A stretch of 64,000 nucleotides of DNA from Halichondria panicea (taxonomy: Eukaryota > Porifera > Demospongiae > Suberitida > Halichondriidae), in the NCBI RefSeq assembly GCF_963675165.1, contig NC_087377.1:13884198-13948197 (forward strand). Direction: 5' to 3'. Positions 3,170 to 49,762 of the stretch are shown piece after piece. Positions within the stretch are counted from its first letter, which is position 1; each line of letters starts with the position of its first letter. Below the pieces are notes generated by a model. That model made no database searches and was not told where the DNA came from. It saw nothing but the letters and a program-made list of their open reading frames with translations. A program made the translations under genes and the position numbers.

Positions 3170-5435
3170 CTGGGACTAGATATTCTATGATAGTTATTAA
3201 TGCACCTTTGCAAGTTAGCTATTAACTCTCATGCACTGTCAACATCCTGTGAAATTGAGTGGGCTATAGTGATGTCTTGCCTCGATTCCAGGCTGCCCTC
3301 GAAAATATAAATCCTGCCAAATATCAGATTTGGAGCTGATTGCATGCCAATGCATGGGAAGGAGTATACGGGAAAAATAATCGCAATTTCCACTTAATTG
3401 TCACTTGCTGTTATGGTGGATCAGTATGCTTCTTTTCCTTCATTCCTTAGTGGGATGCGTGAGACAAGAAACCCAATACACCCCCTATAGATTCTTATCA
3501 AGGCAGAGTTCATAAAGAGGAGTACACCAACTCCCACGCACATTCCATTCTACTAAAAACGTCACTAGCACTAGTTGTGCACTGTTATAGGTATCAGTAC
3601 AAACCACAACACATGCTGTGTCAGTGTGTGCTAATAGCATAATTGACCACTACACCTATGCACCCACTTAAAATGTGATGTAGTATGACATAATTATACT
3701 TGTATCAAAACATGGTTTATACTACAACTATATACGGTTATTATAGTCATTCAAATAACCAGTATGTTACATTTACTCCACTTCAGGGTACTATTATATT
3801 AATGCAGCTACTATAAATTATAGACACAACCTCCGGACACAGAAATTCTTTCTCGGAAATTATTATCTCAGATCATTGTGATCCATCCTCTGGTTCTAGT
3901 TGTTCGCCTAACCGTTATAAAAGCGAAAACTCGGCCTGGGATCGAGGCTATGCATGGATATGCTACTAGACCTAAACATCAGTAGCTTGTAGGTGTCTTT
4001 CTGCGGACTGGAAAAAAATGGGCTCATGGAGTGCTCCGTGTTTAATGGACCTGGCCCACCTGATCGCCAAGATGGTGGATCTTAACAGAGAGAACTTAGC
4101 TTACATCTTAATAACGCTTTGCATGTAGGGGGTGTCCTGCTAATCACTTGTAGAAGGTATAGTAGCCGATCTTCCCTTTCCTCCCGAGACTGATAATACC
4201 AGGGGACCGCCGGAGTGAATGTTGAGTGTTCAATTTCTTTCATTCTCTGGTCGTATTATTCCCGTTCTTTTGTTTGTGGCGCCTGTATAGGTTGCTTGCA
4301 GAGTGGCCTGTATTTGATCGAGCGCATGGGTTGAAAACCCTTACATTAAAAAATGCTCTTTCAAATCGACCACCCCAAAAAACATTGGCCGCAACATCAA
4401 ATCTTGAGTTGCATTCAGTGCATGCAGGCGAAGTCATTACCTCCCTAGAAAGGGGCTAATGAATCAGCAGTTATAGTATGTTAGTAAATTGTCTATCTAC
4501 CTAAACTGAAGCGAACATTGGCTGAAAAAACTTATTGAAGAAGTCGACGGCACTGACGAAATCGATAGAGCTGACAAAATAATTGTGCTGCAGAAGGCCC
4601 CCCAATATTCCCTGTATTCTCCGCCAGTGAAAGACTTGCATTTGAGACAGACTCTGAAGTCAATATGTTCCTTCACCACGCATCACCTAATCCAATGCCG
4701 GAGCAAGCCGCAGGTGAGCCATTATACCGTCTAATGCTTTGTCTTATCATCCGGATCATAACCAAAGCAGCCTTCCACAATTCAAAAGGATTCTGAATTT
4801 GGAGAGGAATTTTTAAAGTCGGCTGATTCAGGTTGCGTTCTAAGTAACGATAACAAAACAGGGTTTGGAATGGAAGCCATGTAAGTTATGCCGGAATTTT
4901 TTTGTGATATTAGATCCTCATCAGGCTTCACATCTTGGGGGATGACGTTTTTGTTTGACAATATCAAAAGGGAGTGTGCCCAATTGCAATTAAGCCCTGG
5001 CAATATGAAGGTTATTACTTGTGAGTCAGCAACTTTAACATTATAATTATACAGTTCAACGTGAAAAAATTAACTTGATTGGATAAAATCAAAGTCCTAT
5101 ATAGCTACTCAATGCTTGCTGACGATTCACTTGTCGGCAGTTTGTCGGTAGGAGATCTACCAAGCATTTTTTTTAAGTGCCCTCAGCTATACCATTTACA
5201 TGGCACAGCCATACGTATACGTACCAAACGAATCGTTCAGTTTGATCATAATATCTGCTCTCCTGGTCATCTCAGATCAGCTTCTAATAGGCTCTTTTCG
5301 ACGAAAACATCTCCATTTTCTGTTCTTAGGGTCTGCACTCTCTTAGACAAAGCCCTGGGTGGGTACCATGGACAGCATACAGGATAGAACGGTTCAGAAT
5401 AGGTCTTCTTTATCTATATTTTATCTGTCATCTCC
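3170..5435. other. intergenic, mostly unassigned
   Basis: No confirmed gene. A plus-strand open stretch at about 4520-4710 (reading WLKKLIEEVDGTDEIDRADK before a possible donor CAG|GTGAGC) could be an isolated exon, but I found no partner exon or domain. At 3904-3951 there is one arm of the AACTCGGCCTGGGATCGAGG repeat that forms the palindrome at 24562-24655. Confidence 0.35.
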
Positions 5436-9717: not shown

Positions 9718-9760
9718 CCAGTATACGTACGTACGGCGTACGGAATGGATCCACGGAGTA

Positions 9761-10059
9761 GAGTAAGCAACCAATTTCCGAACGACACCAGTTTTCGTGT
9801 GCCCGTTTGAAGAGACAGTAAGAGCTATCTTCTAGTTTTTTGCATGCACTAATAGACAATGATCAGATCTCGTGCCTACCACAATTAGAAGTAATCCGGT
9901 TACTTTACTCTTGCACAGCAGCAGCTCAAAGTCGGTGGTTCGAACATTCAATAAGCGACGTTTGCAACCTATTGGCGACTATAGACTCTTGCGATAGTTT
10001 CAAAGCTATGCTACGACTTCTAGAACGACAGAGAGACTTCTGGTACCTGCCAGGCCTCG
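9761..10059 (+). repeat. left terminal inverted repeat
   Basis: Inverted match to 13174-13469. It contains the landmarks CAATGATCAGATCTCGTGCC and TTCAATAAGCGACGTTTGCA. It is open in one frame in both copies, but without a usable ATG, so I do not call it coding. Just inside its inner edge, CTC|GTAAGG could serve as a splice donor for a 5' non-coding exon of the internal gene. Confidence 0.85.
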
Positions 10060-10320
10060 TAAGGACTAGTATAGTGCTGAGTCAGCATGCCTGCACATGA
10101 GATCCAGCCACGTGCTCACAGGAAGAAGAAGCTCACCTTCACTGCACTTGAGATGCTTGAGAATGGAAACTAATAGCCTAAATAGGTCAGTGACTGTGAG
10201 ATATCAAGATCTGCAAGGGTGCATACATTTTTCCTTTATATATCTAGGTTCTGTTTACCTGGCCTCGGAAAGAGATGTTCCCCTCTCCGCGATAGAGTGT
10301 TTTCGTTTGATTCTGATCCC

Positions 10321-13005
10321 ATGCGTACGCCTCAGTATAAGAAAGTACGAGCATGCAGGCCGGAAAAATATCGCCCCTGGAGCAAGCGAAGCATGGAACG
10401 AGCTCTCGATGCGGTTATTCACAAAGGGGTTGCTGTCTCCAGAGCTGCCGCTGACTATGGTATACCAAAGACAACTCTATATGACAATGCCACAGGAAGA
10501 GTTTTGCCAGGGAGCAGGAGTGGACCAAAGACATATTTCACGGTCGAAGAAGAGGCTCTGTTAGTGTGTTTCCTCATCAAGTCAGCCGAAATTGGGTATC
10601 CTTTCACCAGATTACAGGTTTTGTCTCTAGTTGAAACAATGTTGATCCGAAAAAACAAAGAAAAGACTGGTGCCTCTTCTGTTACGCATGGTTGGTGGGC
10701 TAGATTTTGTAAGCGACATCCTGAAGTCTCTTTAAAGACATCCTCTTGTCTGTCAGTGGCTAGAGTCAAGGCATCTTCCGCTGAGACACTCTCCGAATAT
10801 TTTTGTACTTTTGGTAACGTCACACACTATGCAAAAAACGTACTACATGTCACAATATTGTATAGGTGGTGCTACAAACAAGGCCCTCAGAAATAAGACA
10901 GGTTCTTCCCGCGGCAGAGTGAAACGTGGTGGTGGTAGTGGTGTGAACACAAGAGGTACACATTTTGAGCGCTATAATTTTTATTTGCATGGATCTGTTA
11001 ATCGTTGTGGTGTTTCCTTATTTAGCTCGTGTGACAAACCCACCGGACCTAAACACTAGGGATGGTCATGAGGCCTACACAGTTTCCTCCCCAGGTCAGT
11101 TGAAATGTATGTATGTGTGGTTGTGTGCTTGTGTGCTTACTACATGTATTATCTTTACACCACAGCTGATTCAGCAAGCACGGATGTTGAAGGGGATAAG
11201 GGTAATGTCACACAGTATGCCCCAAAAAATAATTTACCTGTAAACAACGATATTGTACAGGTGGTGCTACAAACAAGGCCCTCAGGAATAAGGCAGGTTC
11301 TTTCTGCGGCAGAGCGAAACGTGGACGTGGTAGTGGTGCGACCACAAGAGGTATATATTTTGAGTGCTATTTGCATGGATCTGTTAATTATGGTAATGAA
11401 TGTAATTATGTGAGTGGATATTTCCTTATTTAGCTCGTGTGACAAACCCATCGGACCTAAACACTAGGGATGGTCTTGAGGCCTACACAGTTTCCTTCCC
11501 AGGTCAGTTGAAACGTCTGCACATGTACATGTATGTGTGATTGTGTTCCGTATGTGCTCACTAGTATTATCTTTACCCCACAGCTGATTTAGCAAGCATG
11601 GATGTTGAACAGAATAAAGGTAACGTCGTACAGTATGCAAAAAACGTACTACATATCACTATTGTACAGGTGGTGCTACAAACAAGGCCCTCAGGAATAA
11701 GACAGGTTCTTCCCGCGGCAAAGCGAAACGTGGACGTGGACGTAGTAGTGGTGTAAACACAAGAGGTACACATTTTGAGCGCTATAATTTTTATTTGCAT
11801 GGATCTGTTAATCGTTGTGGTGTTTCCTTATTTAGCTCGTGTGACAAACCCACCCGACCTAAACACTAGGGATGGTCTTGAGGCCTACACAGTTTCCTCC
11901 CCAGGTCAGTTGAAATGTATGTATGTGTGGTTGTGTGCTCACTACATGTATTATCTTTACACCACAGCTGATTCAGCAAGTTCAGCAAGCACGGATGTTG
12001 AAGACGATAAGGGTAATGTCGCACAGTATGCCCCAAAAAATAATACTAAATTTATCCGTAAACAACGATATTGTACAGGTGGTGCTACAAACAAGGCCCT
12101 CAGGAATAAGACAGGTTCTTCCCGCGGCAGAGCAAAACGTAGACGTGGACGTAGTAGTGGTGCGACCACAAGAGGTACACATTTTGAGCGCTATTTGCAT
12201 GGATCTGTTAATTATGATAATGAATATTTGTGTTGTAATTATGTGAGTGGATATTTCCTTATTTAGCTCGTGTGACAAACCCACCGGACCTAAACACTAG
12301 GGATGGTCTTGAGGCCTACACAGTTTCCTCCCCAGGTCAGTTGAAACGTCTGCACATGTACATGTATGTGTGATTGTGTTCCGTATGTGCTCACCAGTAT
12401 TATCTTTACCCCACAGCTGATTCAGCAAGCATGGATGTTGAACAGAATAAAGGTAACGTCGCACAGTATGCAAAAAACGTACTGCATGTCATAATATTGT
12501 ACAGGTGGTGTTACAAACAAGGCCCTCAGGAATAAGACAGGTTCTTCCCGCGGCAGAGCGAAGCGTGGACGTGGACGTGGTGGTAGTAGTGGTGCGACCA
12601 CAAGAGGTATATATTTTGAGCGCGATTTGCATGGATCTGTTAATTATGGTAATGAATGTAATTATGTGAGTGGATATTTCCTTATTTAGCTCGTGTGACA
12701 AACCCACCGGACCTAAACACTAGGGATGGTCATGAGGCCTACACAGTTTCCTCCCCAGGTCAGTTGAAATGTATGTATGTGTGGTTGTGTGCTTGTGTGC
12801 TTACTACACCACAGCTGATTCAGCAAGTTCAGCAAGCACGGATGTTGAAGAGGATAAAGGTAATGTCGCACAGTATGCCAAAAAAGAACAGACATACATA
12901 TTATACTAAATTTATTCACGATGTACAGGTGTTACAAACAAGGTCTTCAGGAATAAGACAGGTTCTTCCCGCGGCAGAACAAAACGTGGATGTGGAAAAT
13001 TATAA
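10321..13005 (+). CDS. HTH (pipsqueak/CENP-B-like) protein with tandem RG-rich exon array, 17 exons
   Basis: Predicted 528-residue nuclear DNA-binding protein. Exon 1 (10321-10813) encodes a pipsqueak-type helix-turn-helix (residues ~22-60, AVSRAAADYGIPKTTLYD) and a CENP-B/Tc5-type domain (~72-137, WWARFCKRHP), as in pogo transposases. It splices into five copies of a cassette. Exon a: 10866-10955, 11261-11350, 11670-11765, 12079-12174, 12505-12606. Exon b: 11026-11094, 11434-11502, 11836-11904, 12267-12335, 12690-12758. Exon c: 11166-11201, 11584-11619, 11968-12012, 12417-12452, 12815-12859. The last exon is 12929-13005 with a TAA stop. Every cassette exon is phase 1-1 and a multiple of 3. 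Exon a is basic with RGR motifs (SSRGRAKRGRGR), b is NPPDLNTRDG-like, c is acidic. No DDE domain. The start is the first ATG before the domain; an upstream exon is possible. Confidence 0.75.
10814..12928 (+). repeat. tandem array of the three-exon cassette (period ~395-426 bp)
   Basis: Exon a recurs at spacings of 395, 409, 409, 426 and 424 bp. Introns are copied too: the intron after exon 1 (GTAACGTCACACACTATGCA) is nearly the same as the c-to-a introns at 11620 and 12453. Units alternate between two subtypes. Units 1, 3 and 5 have a 'GATAAGG/AAAGGTAATGTC' c-a junction; units 2 and 4 have AATAAAGGTAACGTC. Growth by a two-unit step is therefore likely. Confidence 0.85.
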
Positions 13006-13173
13006 AGTGTTGATGATTATTTTTATGTGTTGATTATTATTTTGGCTGTAATATTACCCTATCACGCGCATGCGCAAGTAAACTATAATTATGCTGACTC
13101 AGCCTTAAAAGGGTTTTTTTGCCCTTGCCATGCACGGTTTTATCAGTTCTGATCGAGTTTTGATCGTTTGTAT

Positions 13174-13469
13174 GAGGCCTGGCAGGTACCAGAAGTCTCT
13201 GTCGTTCTTGAAGTCGTAGCATAGCTTTGAAACTATCGCAAGAGTCTATAGTCGCCAATAGGTTGCAAACGTCGCTTATTGAATGTTCGAACCACCGACT
13301 TTGAGCTGCTGCTGTGCAAGAGTAAAGTAACCGGATTACTTCTAATTGTGGTAGGCACGAGATCTGATCATTGTCTATTAGTGCATGCAAAAAACTAGAA
13401 GATAGCTCTTACTGTCTCTTCAAACGGGCACACGAAAACTGGTGTCGTTCGGAAATTGGTTGCTTACTC
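13174..13469 (-). repeat. right terminal inverted repeat
   Basis: Reverse complement of 9761-10059. The outer end is followed by TA. The inner end lacks the GTAAGG donor-like sequence present in the left copy. Confidence 0.85.
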
Positions 13470-13621
13470 TACCACCCACCATAGGCGTGGTATTTTCGAG
13501 GCACTAAATCTACCACTTTATAGCAACAGTAGTCGAGTCGTCAGTTCCACTATAATACATCCTATGTAAAAGGCATTACTGAATGACTATGGTATTCACT
13601 CCACCATATAGGCGATAGGCC

Positions 13622-15359
13622 ATGTCGTCTAGTCTATGGATGAAATTTCCTGCCCAAAGACGTCTCCTGCTTTGTCTCTCCACAATATCAGCTCTAGTTG
13701 TTGCAGGTAAAGTTAACGCATCATTTTTATGTGGGGATAGTACTGCTATACATTAGCTATTAAATTTAATTTGCTGTCATTTTCTCTACCAAAAAAAGAG
13801 GCGTCTCTAATGTCCAACACGAGTGTAGCGTGTCCTGGTGAGGCTGTTTTGTTCACATGCTCTTCGCCTGGTACATTGATATGGCAAGTGGATCTACGAT
13901 CACCAGCAGGGACGTCACTGCAAAGTTTCTTCCTTCCCTCACAAGTTGTTGGTGTTCCAAGGACACTTGAATTTGGAGTGATCATGTTTGAGGCTGTTCT
14001 TGTAAGCAATGATGGTGGAACTCTGACGTCCACTCTCATCAACCTCAGTGAAGTGTCTGTACTGGATGATAGCAATGTCACCTGTACTATTACTAACAAT
14101 AGTTCTGCGTCACAGCAACAGCAAACCATCATGGTTGCTGGTGAGTATTTATACTTCATAGCTAAGCCTGTTGATATTTTATATATTGAACTTTCAGTTA
14201 TCCCAACACGTCCACTCAATCCAAGCATATCCTTCATTCAAAACCAACTCAGCTCCTCCATTATCACTCTGGACTGGGACCCTCCCTCCTCTACTGGTGG
14301 TGTGTCTGTCAGCTATGTCCTCATCATCTCCCCAACACCTCTCTCCGGATCACCAGTCACTGTGGAGACCACCTCGGCACAGATAATCATCTCCTATAAC
14401 ACTCCCTACAATGTGACCATCAGAGCTGTCAACTGTGCTGGATCGAGCAGTGATGTCATGCCAATGATTCATGCTATTGGTATATAATTCTTTGTACTAA
14501 CCTTAACCCTAACTTTTGTCTACTGCAGTTACATGCCCCTCTAACCCACCACCTGCCAACCGAGTGACCATCAATGGTGCTCCTCCACTGCCTGCACTAG
14601 TAGGATCAACTCTTAGTTTCACTTGCAATGGACAGACGCTACTAGCAACCTGTGAGAGTGATGGACGATGGTCACATGACCCCACCACATATGACTGTCC
14701 CTCAGGTAAGGTGCATGTATATCATGCATGAGACTATAGTCTCCTTCCACGATTCCTATAGTATTCAGTAGCCAATTAGTTGAATGCTCGTGCATGTGCA
14801 GCGCTGATTGAGATCGTACTTTTTGGCCTTCCATATTTTATAGTGCACTGCTCTCTTCCTCCTGAGCTGTGCAATGGTGCTATAGTGGACTATGATAGGT
14901 TGAACGAGACAGTGGTGGAGGGAACAGTGCTGACTTACCAGTGTGACAATGAATTCTCATTGACTGGACCCAACAACATCAATTGTACTAATGCTGGACT
15001 CTGGAGCATTGAGCCTGAGGCAATCAAGTGTGTACTTAGGACTGAAGGTTTAGGAGTTATTTATTCCATAATGAATAATTATGACTATCTGTTTTACAGG
15101 TTCTACAGTCGCCATCCTATCTACTGGTGAAGCTATCGCTATAAGTTTTGTCATAACTTTCATTGTGGCTGCAATTCTTGGACTCCTAGTGATGCACTTG
15201 TGCTCAGGCTCTTGTAAGAAGGCAGTATACTCTCCAGCAACTAAAGAACAAGCTAATATAGGACCCACTGCACCAGTTGGTCCTGTTTATGAGGAGGTGT
15301 CACCCAAAGATGAGATTGAACTGAATACTAACCAGGCGTACGGACCTGTTGCACTATAA
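13622..15359 (+). CDS. Ig-FN3-sushi-sushi transmembrane receptor B (intact, 6 exons)
   Basis: Predicted 449-residue type I receptor. Exons: 13622-13706 (signal peptide, residues 1-28, RLLLCLSTISALVVA), 13799-14140 (Ig-like, ~29-142, cysteines in SVACPGE, VLFTC and NVTC), 14198-14479 (FN3, ~143-236, LDWDPPSSTGG and YNVTIRAVNCAG), 14529-14705 (sushi 1), 14844-15047 (sushi 2), 15100-15359 (membrane helix ~374-397 and tail). All introns are phase 1 and the frame closes exactly. Several NxS/T sites lie in the extracellular part. Tail tyrosines are Y407 (VYSP), Y427 (VYEEV) and Y444 (AYGPV); the YEEV-to-YGPV gap is 13 residues, longer than a classical ITAM (6-8). Neighbours are the exon-array transposon upstream and receptor C downstream on the same strand. 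Confidence 0.88.
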
Positions 15360-27899: not shown

Positions 27900-28772
27900 A
27901 AGTATATCAGCCAATAAGTTATGTTGATATACTCAATCGACTGGAACTTGCTGAGAAACTTTTCTGACTTTCCGAGAGCAGTGGTTCGTTAACGGGAATC
28001 CAGAAAAATAATATATTCAGTGCTGGTCTAGACATGCATGCAGATATATCAGCCAGTATATGTTGATATATACTCAAGTTTACAATTCTGAGGTTACTTT
28101 AATCGACTGGAACTTGCTGAGAAACTTTTCTGACTTTCCGAGAGCAGTGGTTCGTTAACGGGAACCCAGAAAAATAATATATTCAGTGCTGGTCTAGACA
28201 TGCATGCAGATATCAGCCAGTATGTTGATATAATTATACTCAAGTTTACAATTCTGAGGTTACTTTAATCGACTGGAACTTGCTGAGAAACTTTTCTGAC
28301 TTTCCGAGAGCAGTGGTTCGTTAACGGGAACCCAGAAAAATAACATATTCAGTGCTGGTCTAGACATGCAAGTTCCAGTCGATTAAAGTAACCTCAGAAT
28401 TGTAAACTTGAGTATATATATCAACATACTGGCTGATATCTGCATGCATGTCTAGACCAGCACTGAATATGTTATTTTTCTGGGTTCCCGTTAACGAACC
28501 ACTGCTCTCGAAAAGTCAGAAAAGTTTCTCAGCAAGTTCCAGTCGATTAAAGTAACCTCAGAATTGTAAACTTGAGTATATATCAACATACTGGCTGATA
28601 TCTGCATGCATGTCTAGACCAGCACTGAATATATTATTTTTCTGGGTTCCCGTTAACGAACCACTGCTCTCAGAAATTCAGAAAAGTTTCTCAGATATCA
28701 GCCAGTATGTTGATATATACTCAAGTTTACAATTCTGAGGTTACTTTAATCGACTGGAACTTGCTGAGAAAC
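27900..28772. repeat. inverted/direct repeat cluster (large palindrome)
   Basis: A ~150-bp unit (landmarks CGACTGGAACTTGCTGAGAA, GTGGTTCGTTAACGGGAA, GTGCTGGTCTAGACATGCA) occurs about three times directly (to ~28370). It then occurs about twice in inverted orientation (28371-28690), and once more in part as a direct copy. Copies are nearly identical, so the array is young or is kept uniform by gene conversion. The structure can form long hairpins. Confidence 0.85.
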
Positions 28773-33239: not shown

Positions 33240-34424
33240 CCATGGAATCCAAAAGTGAAGGAAGATTTACCTTTGAAGTTATTCATGCTCTCATAAGCAG
33301 GAACGAGTACCCTTCATCCTTTAGTAAAGAAGACAAGCGTTCCCTGAGGCGGAGAGTTAAATGCTTTGATGCAGTGGATGGAGAATTGTACTATGTTGGA
33401 TCTACCCATAAGAGACAGTTGCCAGCCATAAATTACCTAGATATTATACATATAGTTATCACTATATATTTGTGTCTACATACTGTTACATGCAGTATTA
33501 CATTTTCAAAAAAGGTGATGAGAAGAGGCTTGTTGTGGAAGACAAGGAGCAGAGGAAAAGGATTATAGGAGCAATCCATGATCCAAGTCATATGGGAGTC
33601 AACAGAACATTGGGCATGATCACAGCCAAGTATTACTGGCCTGGTCAAACAAATACTACTCGCCCCAACAGGCATGCTGTCTGACAAGCATGTGGATGCT
33701 GCAATGATGCTTTTAAGTGGCCAATTCTTCAAAACATCTGGGTTGCAATCGTCACTTAAAGTGCAGTTTCGTCTTGGTTTTCGCCCAATTGATTTGGACA
33801 AGCGCACGAGGGTTCAAGGTGAGTTATGTAACTGTCTCAAGATTATGAAACAATTCTTTTTATTATATATTAGGAGTGCAGATACTGTTTGTGCCAGAAC
33901 GTCATCACTGGATCCTGACAAGTTGTATTGAAGGCAGTGTCTATGTGTATGACAGCCTGCAGACAGGCACCTAAGGAATTTCCTAGATCTGTAGAAAATC
34001 AACTACTACAGCTCTACCATCCCACACTTAGTCCACCACAACGTCAAGAAATTGGTTTACTGGCAGAGTGTCCGCCTGTCCAACAACAACAAAGTCATAT
34101 GACTGTGGCTTATTTGCTATTGCATGGGCATACCACCTCTTAGTTGGAGACTCTTTAAACACGCTGACACTGTACCAGCAAAAACTCAGACGGCATTTGG
34201 TAAGGTGCTTTGAAAAGAAGAAACTATCAAGGTTCCCAAAATCAAGGCAGGAGACCCCTCGAAGTGAGATAGTGTGGGTATCTGTAGTAGCTTCGTGCTA
34301 CCAGTGCATAAGGCCTGACTCGTGGAACGACATGGTGCAGTGTGATGGCTGCGACAGGTGGTACCACATGAAGTGTGCACGTATAAAGAAAGCTCCATTC
34401 AGTGACTGGCACTGTAAAGACTGA
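33240..34424 (+). pseudogene. transposon-borne H2C2 zinc-binding, Ulp1-like protease and PHD-finger gene, decayed
   Basis: First part (from ATG 33242, MESKSEGRFTFEVIHALISR) leads, probably through a small intron ending TGCAG at 33492, into YIFKKGDEKRLVV and HDPSHMGVNRTLGMITAKYY, an integrase-type H2C2 zinc-binding motif. Next, 33671-33820 (MLSDKHVDAAMMLL) ends at a donor (CAAG|GTGAGT); the exon after 33878 reads VPERHHWILTSCIEGSVYVY with D in YDSL, the His and Asp blocks of a C48/Ulp1-like protease. The Cys block SYDCGLFAIAWA (about 34098) is in another frame. The C-terminus is a PHD finger (CYQC...CDGCDRWYHMKC...WHC) that stops before the last cysteine. At least two frame breaks (about 33975 and 34090) make the gene non-functional as read. 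Confidence 0.7.
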
Positions 34425-46800: not shown

Positions 46801-49370
46801 CACTATCCAAAGTACTAACTTGTTGTGTGGAGGCTACTCATGCTGTAAACGCAGTGCTAGAACATCCAGGTAAGCAGACCTAGTCACAAGCTTGTTCAAG
46901 CTTCTTAGCTTTTGCTCGACAAAGAAGCTTTAACATCAAAATCTGCCACTATTTAAATCAAGATACTGTTGTGTGAAGGCTATCCATGCTGTAAACGCAG
47001 TGCTGTGGCATCCAGGTGAGTAGAAAATCCCATCACAAACAGACAAACAAACAAACTAGAGCACTAAAGTGCAAACCCTCGGCTGGTACATGGTGACATG
47101 ATTAAAAAGAAACCAGAAATATAATGCAGTGCATATAGTGATGTTGTTATCATGTATGACTTGCACAGCAACTCAGGAGCAATAAAACTAAACCAGACTG
47201 GAGGCATGCTGAAACATTTGAGAACAGGTAGTGGTACTATAGATATATGCACTGTGGATTAGGATCACAGTAAAGAAGCCTGGAGTCTCAGAGAAGTATG
47301 GCTCCAGGTTCTGCATGGAGTAGGATCCCAGTCAGCAGCAGGAGAAGCTTCTCTACTTTAGTGACCCTGTTCCATTGTTCCTGGTATATACAGCTTTCTA
47401 CTTTAGTGACCCTGTTCCATCGTTCTTGGTACAGGATCACTTCAGTTATAAGTAACGCATGTGCAAGTTCTGTTCAAGCTACATTTTGCTCGCTTTTATT
47501 AGACAAAGAAGCTTTAACACCGAAAGCTGCCACTATCAAAAGTACTAACTTGTTGTGTGGAGGCTACTTATGCTGTAAACGCAGTGCTAGAACATCCAGG
47601 TAAGCAGACCTAGTCACAAGCTTATTCAAGCTTCTTAGCTTTTGCTCGACAAAGAAGCTTTAACATCAAAATCTGCCACTATTTAAATCAAGATATTGTT
47701 CTGTGAAGGCTATCTATGCTGTAAACGCAGCGCTGTGGCATCCAGGTGAGTAGATATACCTGTGACAAACAAACAAACAAACAAACAAACAGACCAACAT
47801 ACTACTATACCCGTGGCCGCCCACGCGCGCCTCGGGTAACAAACTAGAGCACTAAAGTGCAAACCCTCGGCTGGTGACATGATTATAAAGAAACCAGAAG
47901 ACTGATATAATGCAGTGCATATAGTGATGTTGTTATCATCATCATGCATGACTTGCACAGCAACTCAAATAGCAATAAAACTAAACCAGACTGGAGGCAT
48001 GCTGAAACATTTGAGAACAGGTAGTAGTACTATAAATATATGCACTGTGGATTAGGATCACAGCAAAGAAGCATGAAGTCTCAGAGAAGTATGGCTCCAG
48101 GTCCTGCATGGATCCCAGTCAGCTAAAGCAAGCTTTCTGGTTTAGTGACCCTGTTCCAATATTGTTCCTGGTATATACAGCTTTCTACTTTAGTGACCCT
48201 GTTCCATTGTTTCTGGACCTGGTACAGGATCACTTCAGTTATAAGTAACGCATGTGCAAGTTCTGTTCAAGCTACATTTTGCTCGCTTTTATTAGACAAC
48301 GAAGCTTTAACACCGAAAGCTGCCACTATTAGAAGTACGGACTTGTTGTGTGGAGGCTACCCATGCAGTAAACGCAGTGCTAGAGCATCCAGGTAAGCAG
48401 ACCCAGTCACAAGCTTCTTAGCTTTTGCTCGTTTTTATTTGACAACGAAGGTTTAACATGAAATTCTGCCACTATTAAAATTAATAACTTGTTGTATGAA
48501 GGCTATCCATGCTGTAAACGCAGTGCCATGGCATGCAGGTGAGTAGACTCACACATTACAAACAAACAAACAAACAGACCAACGGACTACTATACCCGTG
48601 GCCGCCCACGCGCGCCTAGGGTAACTAGAGCACTAAAGTGCAAACCCTCGGCTGGTACATGGTGACATGATTAAAAAGAAACCAGAAATATAATGCAGTG
48701 CATATAGTGATGTTGTATTCATGTATGACTTGCACAGCAACTCAGGAGCAATAAAACTAAACCAGACTGGAGGCATGCTGAAACATTTGAGAACAGGTAG
48801 TGGTACTGGTACTATAGATATATGCACTATGGATTAGGATCACAGTAAAGAAGCCTAGAGTCTCAGAGAAGTATGGCTCCAGGTTCTGCATGGAGTAGGA
48901 TCCCAGTCAGCAGCAGGAGCTATATTTCAAGCTTCTACTTTAGTGACCCTGTTCCATTGTTCCTGGTATAATACAGCTTTCTACTTTAGTGACCCTGTTC
49001 CATCGTTTTCTTGGTACAGGATCACTTCAGTTATAAGTAACGCATGTGCAAGTTCTGTTCAAGCTACATTTTGCTCGCTTTTATTAGACAAAGGAGCTTT
49101 AACACCGAAAGATGTCACTATCAAAAGTACTAACTTGTTGTGTGGAGGCTACTCATGCTGTAAACGCAGTGCTAGAGCATCCAGGTAAGCAGACCTAGTC
49201 ACAAGCTTATTCAAGCTTCTTAGCTTTTGCTCGACAAAGAAGCTTTAACAGCAAAATCTGCCACTATTTAAATCAAGATATTGTTGTGTGAAGGCTATCC
49301 ATGCTGTAAACGCAGTGATGTGGCATCCAGGTGAGTAGATATACCTGTGACAAACAAACAAACAAACAGA
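43809..49370. repeat. satellite block 2 (~0.7-kb units, seven or more)
   Basis: Units start CTAGAGCACTAAAGTGCAAA at 43809, 44951, 45648, 46339, 47056, 47844 and 48625. Typical spacing is 690-787 bp; the first is 1142 because of a transposon insertion. Each unit keeps an open 65-codon stretch (plus strand; C-terminal part LLCGGYSCCKRSAR), just before CCAGGTAAGC, at about 44155, 45260, 45942, 46675, 47405, 48190 and 48990. Units are nearly identical, so recent amplification or homogenisation is likely. The same unit forms block 1 and, much diverged, 58888-59940. Confidence 0.9.
44446..44848. mobile_element. TIR element CAGGGGCGGATCCAGG, TSD GATAT
   Basis: Perfect 16-bp ends CAGGGGCGGATCCAGG and CCTGGATCCGCCCCTG. 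Flanked by GATAT on both sides (44441-44445 and 44849-44853). The empty site is visible in the other satellite units (AAGATATTGTT). Runs of CCCCCCC lie inside both ends. Non-coding, 403 bp; related to the element at 9316. Confidence 0.9.
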
Positions 49371-49371
49371 C

Positions 49372-49762
49372 CAACATACTACTATACCCGTGGCCGCCCA
49401 CGCGCGCCTCGGGTAACAAACCAACAGACTACTATACCCGTGGCCGCCCACGCGCCTCGGGTAACAACAGACTACTATACCCGTGGCCGCCCACGCGCCT
49501 CGGGTAACAAACCAACAGACTACTATACCCGTGGCCGCCCACACGCCTCGGGTAACAAACCAACAGACTACTATACCCGTGGCCGCCCACGCGCGCCTCG
49601 GGTAACAAACAGACAAACAGACAGACTACTATAGCCCGTGGCCGCCCACGCGCCTCGGGTTAACAAACCAACAGACTACTATACCCGTGGCCGCCCACGC
49701 GCGCCTCGGGTAACAAACCAACAGACTACTATACCCGTGGCCGCCCACGCGCCTCGGGTAAT
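49372..49762. repeat. GC-rich minisatellite (~48-bp unit, eight copies)
   Basis: The unit ACTACTATACCCGTGGCCGC + CCACGCGC(GC)CTCGGGTAAC + AAACCAACAG repeats about eight times. Single copies occur at about 47805-47840 and 48587-48622 at the ends of satellite units, so the minisatellite grew from the satellite's edge. Each unit has an internal inverted pair (CCCG/CGGG and GTGGCCGCCCAC). Both strands stay open because the unit is often a multiple of 3; this is not evidence of coding. Confidence 0.9.

Follow-up and report, generated by a model that had tools for sequence, protein, structure and literature searches.

The window analysed here is a stretch of 64,000 nucleotides of Halichondria panicea DNA, and on its forward strand an earlier note, made from the letters alone, had proposed a gene in which a DNA-binding exon is followed by an array of repeated exons. 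Five tandem cassettes, each composed of the exons a, b and c, indeed lie at 10866-12859, within the coordinates given in that note. Cassette 1 (10866-11201) consists of a at 10866-10955, b at 11026-11094 and c at 11166-11201; cassette 2 (11261-11619) of a at 11261-11350, b at 11434-11502 and c at 11584-11619; cassette 3 (11670-12012) of a at 11670-11765, b at 11836-11904 and c at 11968-12012; cassette 4 (12079-12452) of a at 12079-12174, b at 12267-12335 and c at 12417-12452; and cassette 5 (12505-12859) of a at 12505-12606, b at 12690-12758 and c at 12815-12859, with only 56 nt of intron between b5 and c5. The a exons measure 90, 90, 96, 96 and 102 nt, the b exons 69 nt in all five cassettes and the c exons 36, 36, 45, 36 and 45 nt. 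As had been claimed, all 15 exons have AG/GT borders, lengths that are multiples of three and phase 1-1 boundaries. They are open in phase 1 in 15/15 cases, in phase 0 in 7/15 and in phase 2 in none (0/15). The 16 introns of the same gene model served as a control, and 5/16 of them are multiples of three. Since these introns are themselves open in phase 0 (6/16), phase 1 (10/16) and phase 2 (5/16), openness of pieces this short says little, and the length rule (15/15 exons vs 5/16 introns) is the stronger evidence. As the cassettes arose from each other by duplication, their 15 exons do not amount to 15 independent observations.

Upstream of the array lies a DNA-binding exon (exon 1, 10248-10813, forward strand), within which the earlier note had placed its start codon at 10321. 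The exon matches the Pfam domain HTH_psq with an E value of 1.5e-8, above the cut-off of that model, and HTH_Tnp_Tc5 with 0.0015, below its curated cut-off. Judged by these matches, which agree with the helix-turn-helix assignment of the note, exon 1 is the HTH_psq/HTH_Tnp_Tc5 DNA-binding domain of a pogo-type transposase. Downstream, a truncated a-type exon with a stop codon (12929-13005, forward strand) closes the coding model of 1587 nt, which is open and, at 529 codons as computed before, encodes 528 residues plus the stop. The alternation of basic modules with acidic linkers also holds: between modules with net charges of +8 to +11 lie others that range from slightly to clearly acidic (−1 to −4).

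When proteins were searched with the tail, seven RefSeq proteins of Halichondria panicea were found (7990 candidates scored), and exon 1 is joined to the array in all seven models. The locus in the window, LOC135348079, accounts for six clusters with 24 member sequences, of which the six representatives were examined, and a second copy on another contig (C2), LOC135332145, for one cluster with five members. As a check on the animal nature of the host, Wnt was sought and gave ten matches on C3, C6 and C12, with none in 14 control genomes. The models of the window locus start upstream of the previously proposed ATG. Their N-terminus (P0130-P0135) begins at an ATG at 10097 in a coding exon at 10097-10185 on the forward strand, followed by an extra intron at 10186-10247; these coordinates, including the 3′ border of the exon, were placed by hand. 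Isoform X3 appears to use an alternative 5′ splice site after 10804, as inferred by hand from P0130. The b5-c5 intron is retained in 6/6 of the listed window proteins (cluster representatives), so that the C-terminal frame is shifted and ends at a stop codon at 13031-13033. The last exon proposed earlier is open in the 1587-nt model, and its exact 3′ end is absent from the six listed proteins; the RefSeq model of the sister copy (P0136) finishes on a last exon of that type.

The whole arrangement is enclosed by the ends of a transposon. A left terminal inverted repeat (TIR) at 9761-10061 on the forward strand (277 nt at 100% and 30 nt at 97% identity) pairs with a right arm at 13171-13469 on the reverse strand, and a TA target-site duplication lies directly outside each arm, at 9759-9760 and 13470-13471. 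The repeats are about 300 bp long and their arms differ at 2/302 aligned columns, from which a recent insertion follows. TA likewise stands outside both repeats of the sister copy on C2 (L007); the right end of a longer relative described below (L009) is short by 2 nt and is then followed by TA. Likeness to the Tigger and Passer branches of the pogo superfamily lies in several parts: HTH_psq and HTH_Tnp_Tc5 in the DNA-binding exon, a DDE_1 domain with DD35D spacing in the relative L012, and inverted repeats with a TA duplication. The suggestion that the array represents an undescribed kind of gene is not supported. Very probably a pogo-type DNA transposon of Halichondria panicea is present here as a non-autonomous copy of 3.7 kb (9761-13469), derived by internal deletion, and an apparently unprecedented gene would thereby be resolved as a transposon derivative. 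Our confidence on this point covers identity and origin only, both of which are shared by the view that the copy has no function.

Three further sites in the same genome carry exon 1 at 99% DNA identity. One of them, L009 on contig C16, measures 5.4 kb, shares its inverted repeats with the window copy and encodes, in this order, the DNA-binding domain, a DDE nuclease (DDE_1, E 4e-13 in Pfam), a Ulp1-like stretch, a PHD finger (E 3.4e-8) and a single cassette. It is damaged, with its DDE and protease frames split into separate ORFs. Two other relatives, L011 and L012, lack a block of it (4736-5296, about 560 nt) in which there is a fragment of a hAT dimerisation domain. This pair on contig C6 is 99% identical, and its match to L009 ends at L009 position 5786. 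An open frame of 649 aa in L012 contains HTH_psq and DDE_1 (E 5.1e-23) with catalytic residues D268, D375 and D411. Their last spacing of 35, i.e. DD35D, falls within the DD29-36D range given for Tigger in the available part of a pogo survey (PMC7386202) and thus fits pogo. Among the longer elements seen (L009, L011 and L012), all damaged or partial, no intact source of transposase was found. Relatives of the DNA-binding and DDE part of L012 comprise 754 proteins among 7995 candidates scored, of which the best 120 of 754 were inspected.

Alignment of the window copy to L009 breaks within the exon, at window 10809-10813 and L009 3489, and resumes at about 6755 in L009, which is the 5′ splice site following a c-type tail exon. 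The internal deletion therefore set the DNA-binding exon directly on a splice donor of the tail in phase 1, with the junction at 10813-10814 (forward strand), where L009 continues into the DDE region. According to this comparison, the window array comes from a longer element with DDE, Ulp1-like and PHD parts, in which it was the C-terminal tail and from which the middle was lost. The sister copy L007 has the same type of junction, 9 nt shorter and still in phase, and its coding model of 1191 nt is open. Evidence for the phase that is independent of the cassettes comes from L009, in which, on manual reading, the last cysteine codon of the PHD finger is split T|GT by a phase-1 splice site and restored by the exon that follows.

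The window copy has five cassettes with an a exon, L007 has three and L009 has one, the truncated last exon closing every array, and a DNA search with one unit located the array in three elements with at least 12 matches. Tail units would multiply when near-identical repeats undergo unequal exchange or slippage, and since every tail exon is phase 1-1, gain and loss of units would be tolerated. The earlier statement that exon skipping or a change in unit number still yields a protein is supported to this extent: predicted isoforms differ by whole cassettes, and the copies carry 5, 3 or 1 units. The window copy itself would have been moved in trans by the transposase of longer relatives.

The middle stretch of L009 has, weakly, the look of a Ulp1-like fold, an assignment based on modelling. 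Foldseek returned no match at E 0.001 or better for the model, which has a mean pLDDT of 74; among the first rows a de-sumoylating protease (E 1.9e-3) stood together with chains of Ulp1, for which TM scores reached 0.39, and of PHD. The match to Ulp1 2hl9 (probability 1.00, E 2.9e-3, TM 0.38) is weak. In Pfam the stretch does not match C48, and its YopJ-type match (E 0.022) is below the cut-off of that family. H49, Q105 and C111 are invariant in eight sequences, the residue preceding the cysteine varies, and the candidate Asp is replaced by Asn in P0007. H49, the candidate Asp, Q105 and C111 may correspond to the His-Asp-Gln-Cys active site of the Ulp1/C48 type. The Ulp1-PHD part has nine relative proteins among 51 candidates. 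In P0005, DDE_1 and PHD occur in one chain according to precomputed Pfam annotation. For P0002 (Ulp1-PHD) and P0011 (DDE) the largest contig is 4411 in both cases, which suggests that they lie on one contig. A scan of viral contigs with P0002 gave two stretches that matched a pattern, neither of which was confirmed.

Tail arrays are not restricted to this element. Relatives of the Ulp1-PHD part in the genome amount to 150 scored matches of 239 candidates. Direct repeats lie 3′ of the PHD finger in five of ten loci inspected (L009, L050, L051, L054 and L055), beginning 54 to 350 nt after it. L056 and L057 lack such repeats. In L049, a broken relative of L009 with 77% identity, longer repeats are found only upstream of its PHD finger; in L052 they occur only past the right inverted repeat, and in L053 no nearer than about 1.9 kb. 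A stop codon follows within two codons of the PHD finger in L052, L053 and L056. Grouped by reading their identities, the ten loci fall into about seven groups, five of which have arrays. Upstream of the PHD finger, L050 and L051 encode HTH_psq and DDE_1 (Pfam) and share 47% identity with the DNA-binding and DDE region of L009, and L054 and L055 have pogo matches on the same strand in a sequence search. At three further Ulp-PHD loci (L058-L060) PHD was present in 3/3, and none of the six ORFs searched with Pfam showed a transposase domain.

Tail exons of L050, L051, L054 and L055 were chosen by motif patterns written after reading the sequences, and exons missed by these patterns are uncounted; that 22/25 have lengths divisible by three and an open phase 1 is consequently no blind count, although the three failures were kept in. 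In L009, L050, L051 and L055 a 5′ splice site (T|GTRAGT) lies within the last cysteine codon of the PHD finger, and on manual reading the following exon restores the codon in all four, that of L050 being one of the three failures. Net charges, computed over 22 exons, alternate clearly in L051 (4, 2, 6, 1, 5, 1, 5, −1) and L055 (−2, 5, −2). As L054 alternates weakly and L050 not at all, alternation is no general rule. Between groups the tail sequences have little in common, so that each group would seem to have built its array anew and not to have inherited the individual units. The findings suggest that phase-matched exon arrays evolved repeatedly within mobile elements. Tentatively, and with more doubt than conviction, we propose that in Ulp1-PHD pogo elements of sponges the transposase C-terminus might be a fast-turnover array of phase-1 cassettes, largely unrelated in sequence from family to family and in some cases with strongly basic modules that take turns with neutral or acidic ones, that in-register skipping together with gain and loss of units might tune tail length, and that deletion derivatives might give rise to a multi-isoform regulator of transposition.

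Selection on the coding array, which the earlier note had considered likely, was not detected at the level of residues. We compared nine cassettes (five of the window copy, three of L007 and one of L009) in 36 pairs, which are not independent. Divergence in these pairs is 0.057 in exons and 0.123 in introns. Pooled pN is 0.056 and pS 0.060, a ratio of ~0.93, i.e. near 1, the outcome that the note itself had set against its claim when it proposed dN/dS between cassette copies as a check. As pS is half the intron divergence, pN/pS is no clean neutral test here, and the cassettes may be subject to gene conversion or to an exonic constraint that does not concern residues. Indels are multiples of three in 57/57 pairwise counts in exons and 80/170 in introns (pairs again not independent), and from these sequences only the frame of the array looks preserved. 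Five copies of exon 1 differ by one to six changes per pair, too few to test, with replacements never fewer than synonymous changes; the window copy and L007, for instance, differ by one synonymous and two non-synonymous changes. Residue-level constraint, sought in the cassettes and in exon 1, was detected in neither.

The window models contain predicted skips from exon 1 to a2, a2 to b3, a1 to b2, b1 to c2 and a1 to b3, and that of L007 one from b2 to c3. All six are in register, each removing a multiple of three exons. RefSeq models of this sort usually rest on RNA-seq. Skips in register would fit true cassette skipping and equally template switching, misplaced short reads or alleles that have fewer units; because this register holds in 6/6 skips, the predicted isoforms are compatible with artefacts or copy-number alleles. 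If they are real, this would be an unusual mobile element that varies its DNA-binding protein by modular splicing.

What the window copy does is a separate matter from what it is. We give about an even chance to the view that it is an inert passenger, which inherited its frame from the tail of its parent, has no function of its own and owes its isoforms to mapping artefacts or background splicing. This view differs from the best functional explanation in function alone. The cassette pN/pS of ~0.93 agrees with it, as do the young inverted repeats and the six distinct skip junctions, all in register as misplaced short reads would give. Selection for a protein product was not detected, the cassette ratio being ~0.93 and the changes in exon 1 too few, and with arms differing at 2/302 columns the open frame could reflect youth alone. 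Less easily accommodated is that the frames of the window copy and L007 are both open despite the 9-nt difference at their junctions and their different unit numbers. Moreover, a second DDE-less type exists, represented by L052 (with like copies on C8, C10 and C5), and the DNA-binding ORF, inspected in L052, is open.

Among specific functions, that of a DNA-binding competitor of the KP type is the best candidate and a realistic possibility, even if overall a functionless passenger is more likely. Such a role is proposed because the DNA-binding domain and the TIRs are kept and the nuclease is absent, as in P-element repressors such as KP, in which, according to the available part of the source, an interrupted transposase retains its DNA-binding domain (PMC12393704). 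A protein of this kind would occupy the element's own ends, and the basic and acidic repeats may add loose, non-specific contacts to nucleic acid or chromatin. The likeness to KP of Drosophila P elements is structural, an internal deletion having removed the catalytic part and left the TIRs and the DNA-binding domain in both (PMC12393704, as far as the available text goes). They differ in that the sponge element belongs to another superfamily and repression by the window copy is putative. The DNA-binding domain of KP is a THAP domain, and we know of no KP elements with an amplified tail.

Domestication as a host gene, in which the DNA-binding domain and tail would act as a host regulator with splicing tuning the length of the tail, we consider improbable. 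It could draw on a frame open across 17 exons, on the large number of RefSeq isoforms (six clusters with 24 members) and on the exon indels (57/57 multiples of three vs 80/170 in introns, in pairs that are not independent). Against these stand TIRs and a TA duplication that are still present on both sides, arms so nearly identical (2/302) that the insertion must be recent, a sister copy at C2 and the lack of detectable residue constraint, with a pN/pS of ~0.93 where purifying selection and loss of the TIRs and target-site duplication would mark a domesticated gene; for these reasons it was rejected as first choice. That the array is no more than a satellite-like repeat, lying in tandem in an intergenic region or a 3′ UTR and with exons by chance, was rejected as extremely unlikely: tandem repeats are common in the window (23 rows) and 10/16 introns of the model are open in phase 1, but the length rule (15/15 exons vs 5/16 introns), the match of the array phase to the parental PHD exon with its split and re-formed cysteine codon (T|GT), the splicing of the array in RefSeq models and a similar design after PHD in four other groups all oppose it.

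In the available part of the pogo survey, families are 1.2-5.2 kb long, TIRs measure 40 bp or less in most families and 40-60 or about 100 bp in others, lengths of 392-856 bp being confined to some insect elements, and the catalytic spacing is DD29-36D in Tigger and DD35D in Passer (PMC7386202). TIRs of about 300 bp and the 5.4-kb relative L009 depart from these values, and that relative adds a Ulp1-like stretch, a PHD finger and an exon-array tail; PHD, protease and ULP as terms were not found in the main text of the survey. The Ulp1-like stretch and the PHD finger of L009 recall Ginger1 elements, such as Hydra Ginger1-9 (Ginger1-9_HM), in which a Ulp1 protease and a PHD finger are attached at the C-terminus of an integrase-like transposase (PMC2836005, available part). 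In Ginger1, however, the transposase is Gypsy-integrase-like with an H2C2 zinc finger, whereas Pfam finds pogo domains (DDE_1) and no integrase in the ORFs of L012 and L009, and the available text describes no array tail (PMC2836005).

In mostly open-access literature, the titles and abstract beginnings of the matches listed held no description of a pogo DDE joined to a Ulp1-like stretch, a PHD finger and an exon-array tail, which makes this a transposase architecture that we have not found described. Likewise, no publication was found there for LOC135348079 or LOC135332145 by name, and papers on the genome of the species, by title and abstract start among the matches listed, contained none on these elements. 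RefSeq entries now named 'uncharacterized protein' would be corrected to transposon derivative. Genes with tandem symmetric exons, such as the PEVK region of titin and fibronectin-type arrays, gain, lose and skip phase-matched exons in frame. The window array differs from these in residing within a transposable element and in amplification of the whole a-b-c unit.

A second type of derivative without DDE nuclease is present in L052, a fetched stretch carrying a Ulp1-PHD relative. In this element (L052 1-2504, contig C3:980900 onward), a DNA-binding ORF is followed by a Ulp1-PHD ORF, and the two lie between inverted repeats that are 97% identical and span at least 178 bp, the left arm running to the edge of the fetched stretch. 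A stop follows the PHD finger, and the tail array is absent after the PHD finger of L052. Similar copies were found on contigs C8, C10 and C5. Within the window itself, the region at 33412-34424 contains an Integrase_H2C2 match (E 9.6e-9), after which come Ulp-like sequence and a PHD finger (E 5.5e-8). This region looks like the remnant of an integrase-type Ginger1 element, suggesting that one genome is home to both pogo-type and integrase-type elements bearing a similar Ulp1-PHD module.

The 5′ part of the transposon that occurs in L011 (C6:1361000-1370900) is also the one found in L012 (C6:1449800-1459700), about 89 kb away. As these stretches are 98-99% identical across about 9 kb, each including this 5′ part, their sequences probably reflect a segmental duplication rather than two separate insertions.

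About 150 nt beyond the right end of the transposon begins an apparent host gene (window 13622-14484), with a first exon resembling a signal peptide by eye and then an fn3 domain (E 1.2e-5). Hence, the young insertion may occupy its promoter region.

The intron between exons b and c of cassette 5 (window 12759-12814) is kept unspliced in all six listed RefSeq models of the locus. At 56 nt it falls below the corresponding introns of cassettes 1 to 4, which measure 71, 81, 63 and 81 nt. Other tandem arrays in the window comprise an adjoining pair in opposite orientation (27935-28694; units of 166 and 162 bp) and about eight copies of a 48-bp unit (49365-49761).
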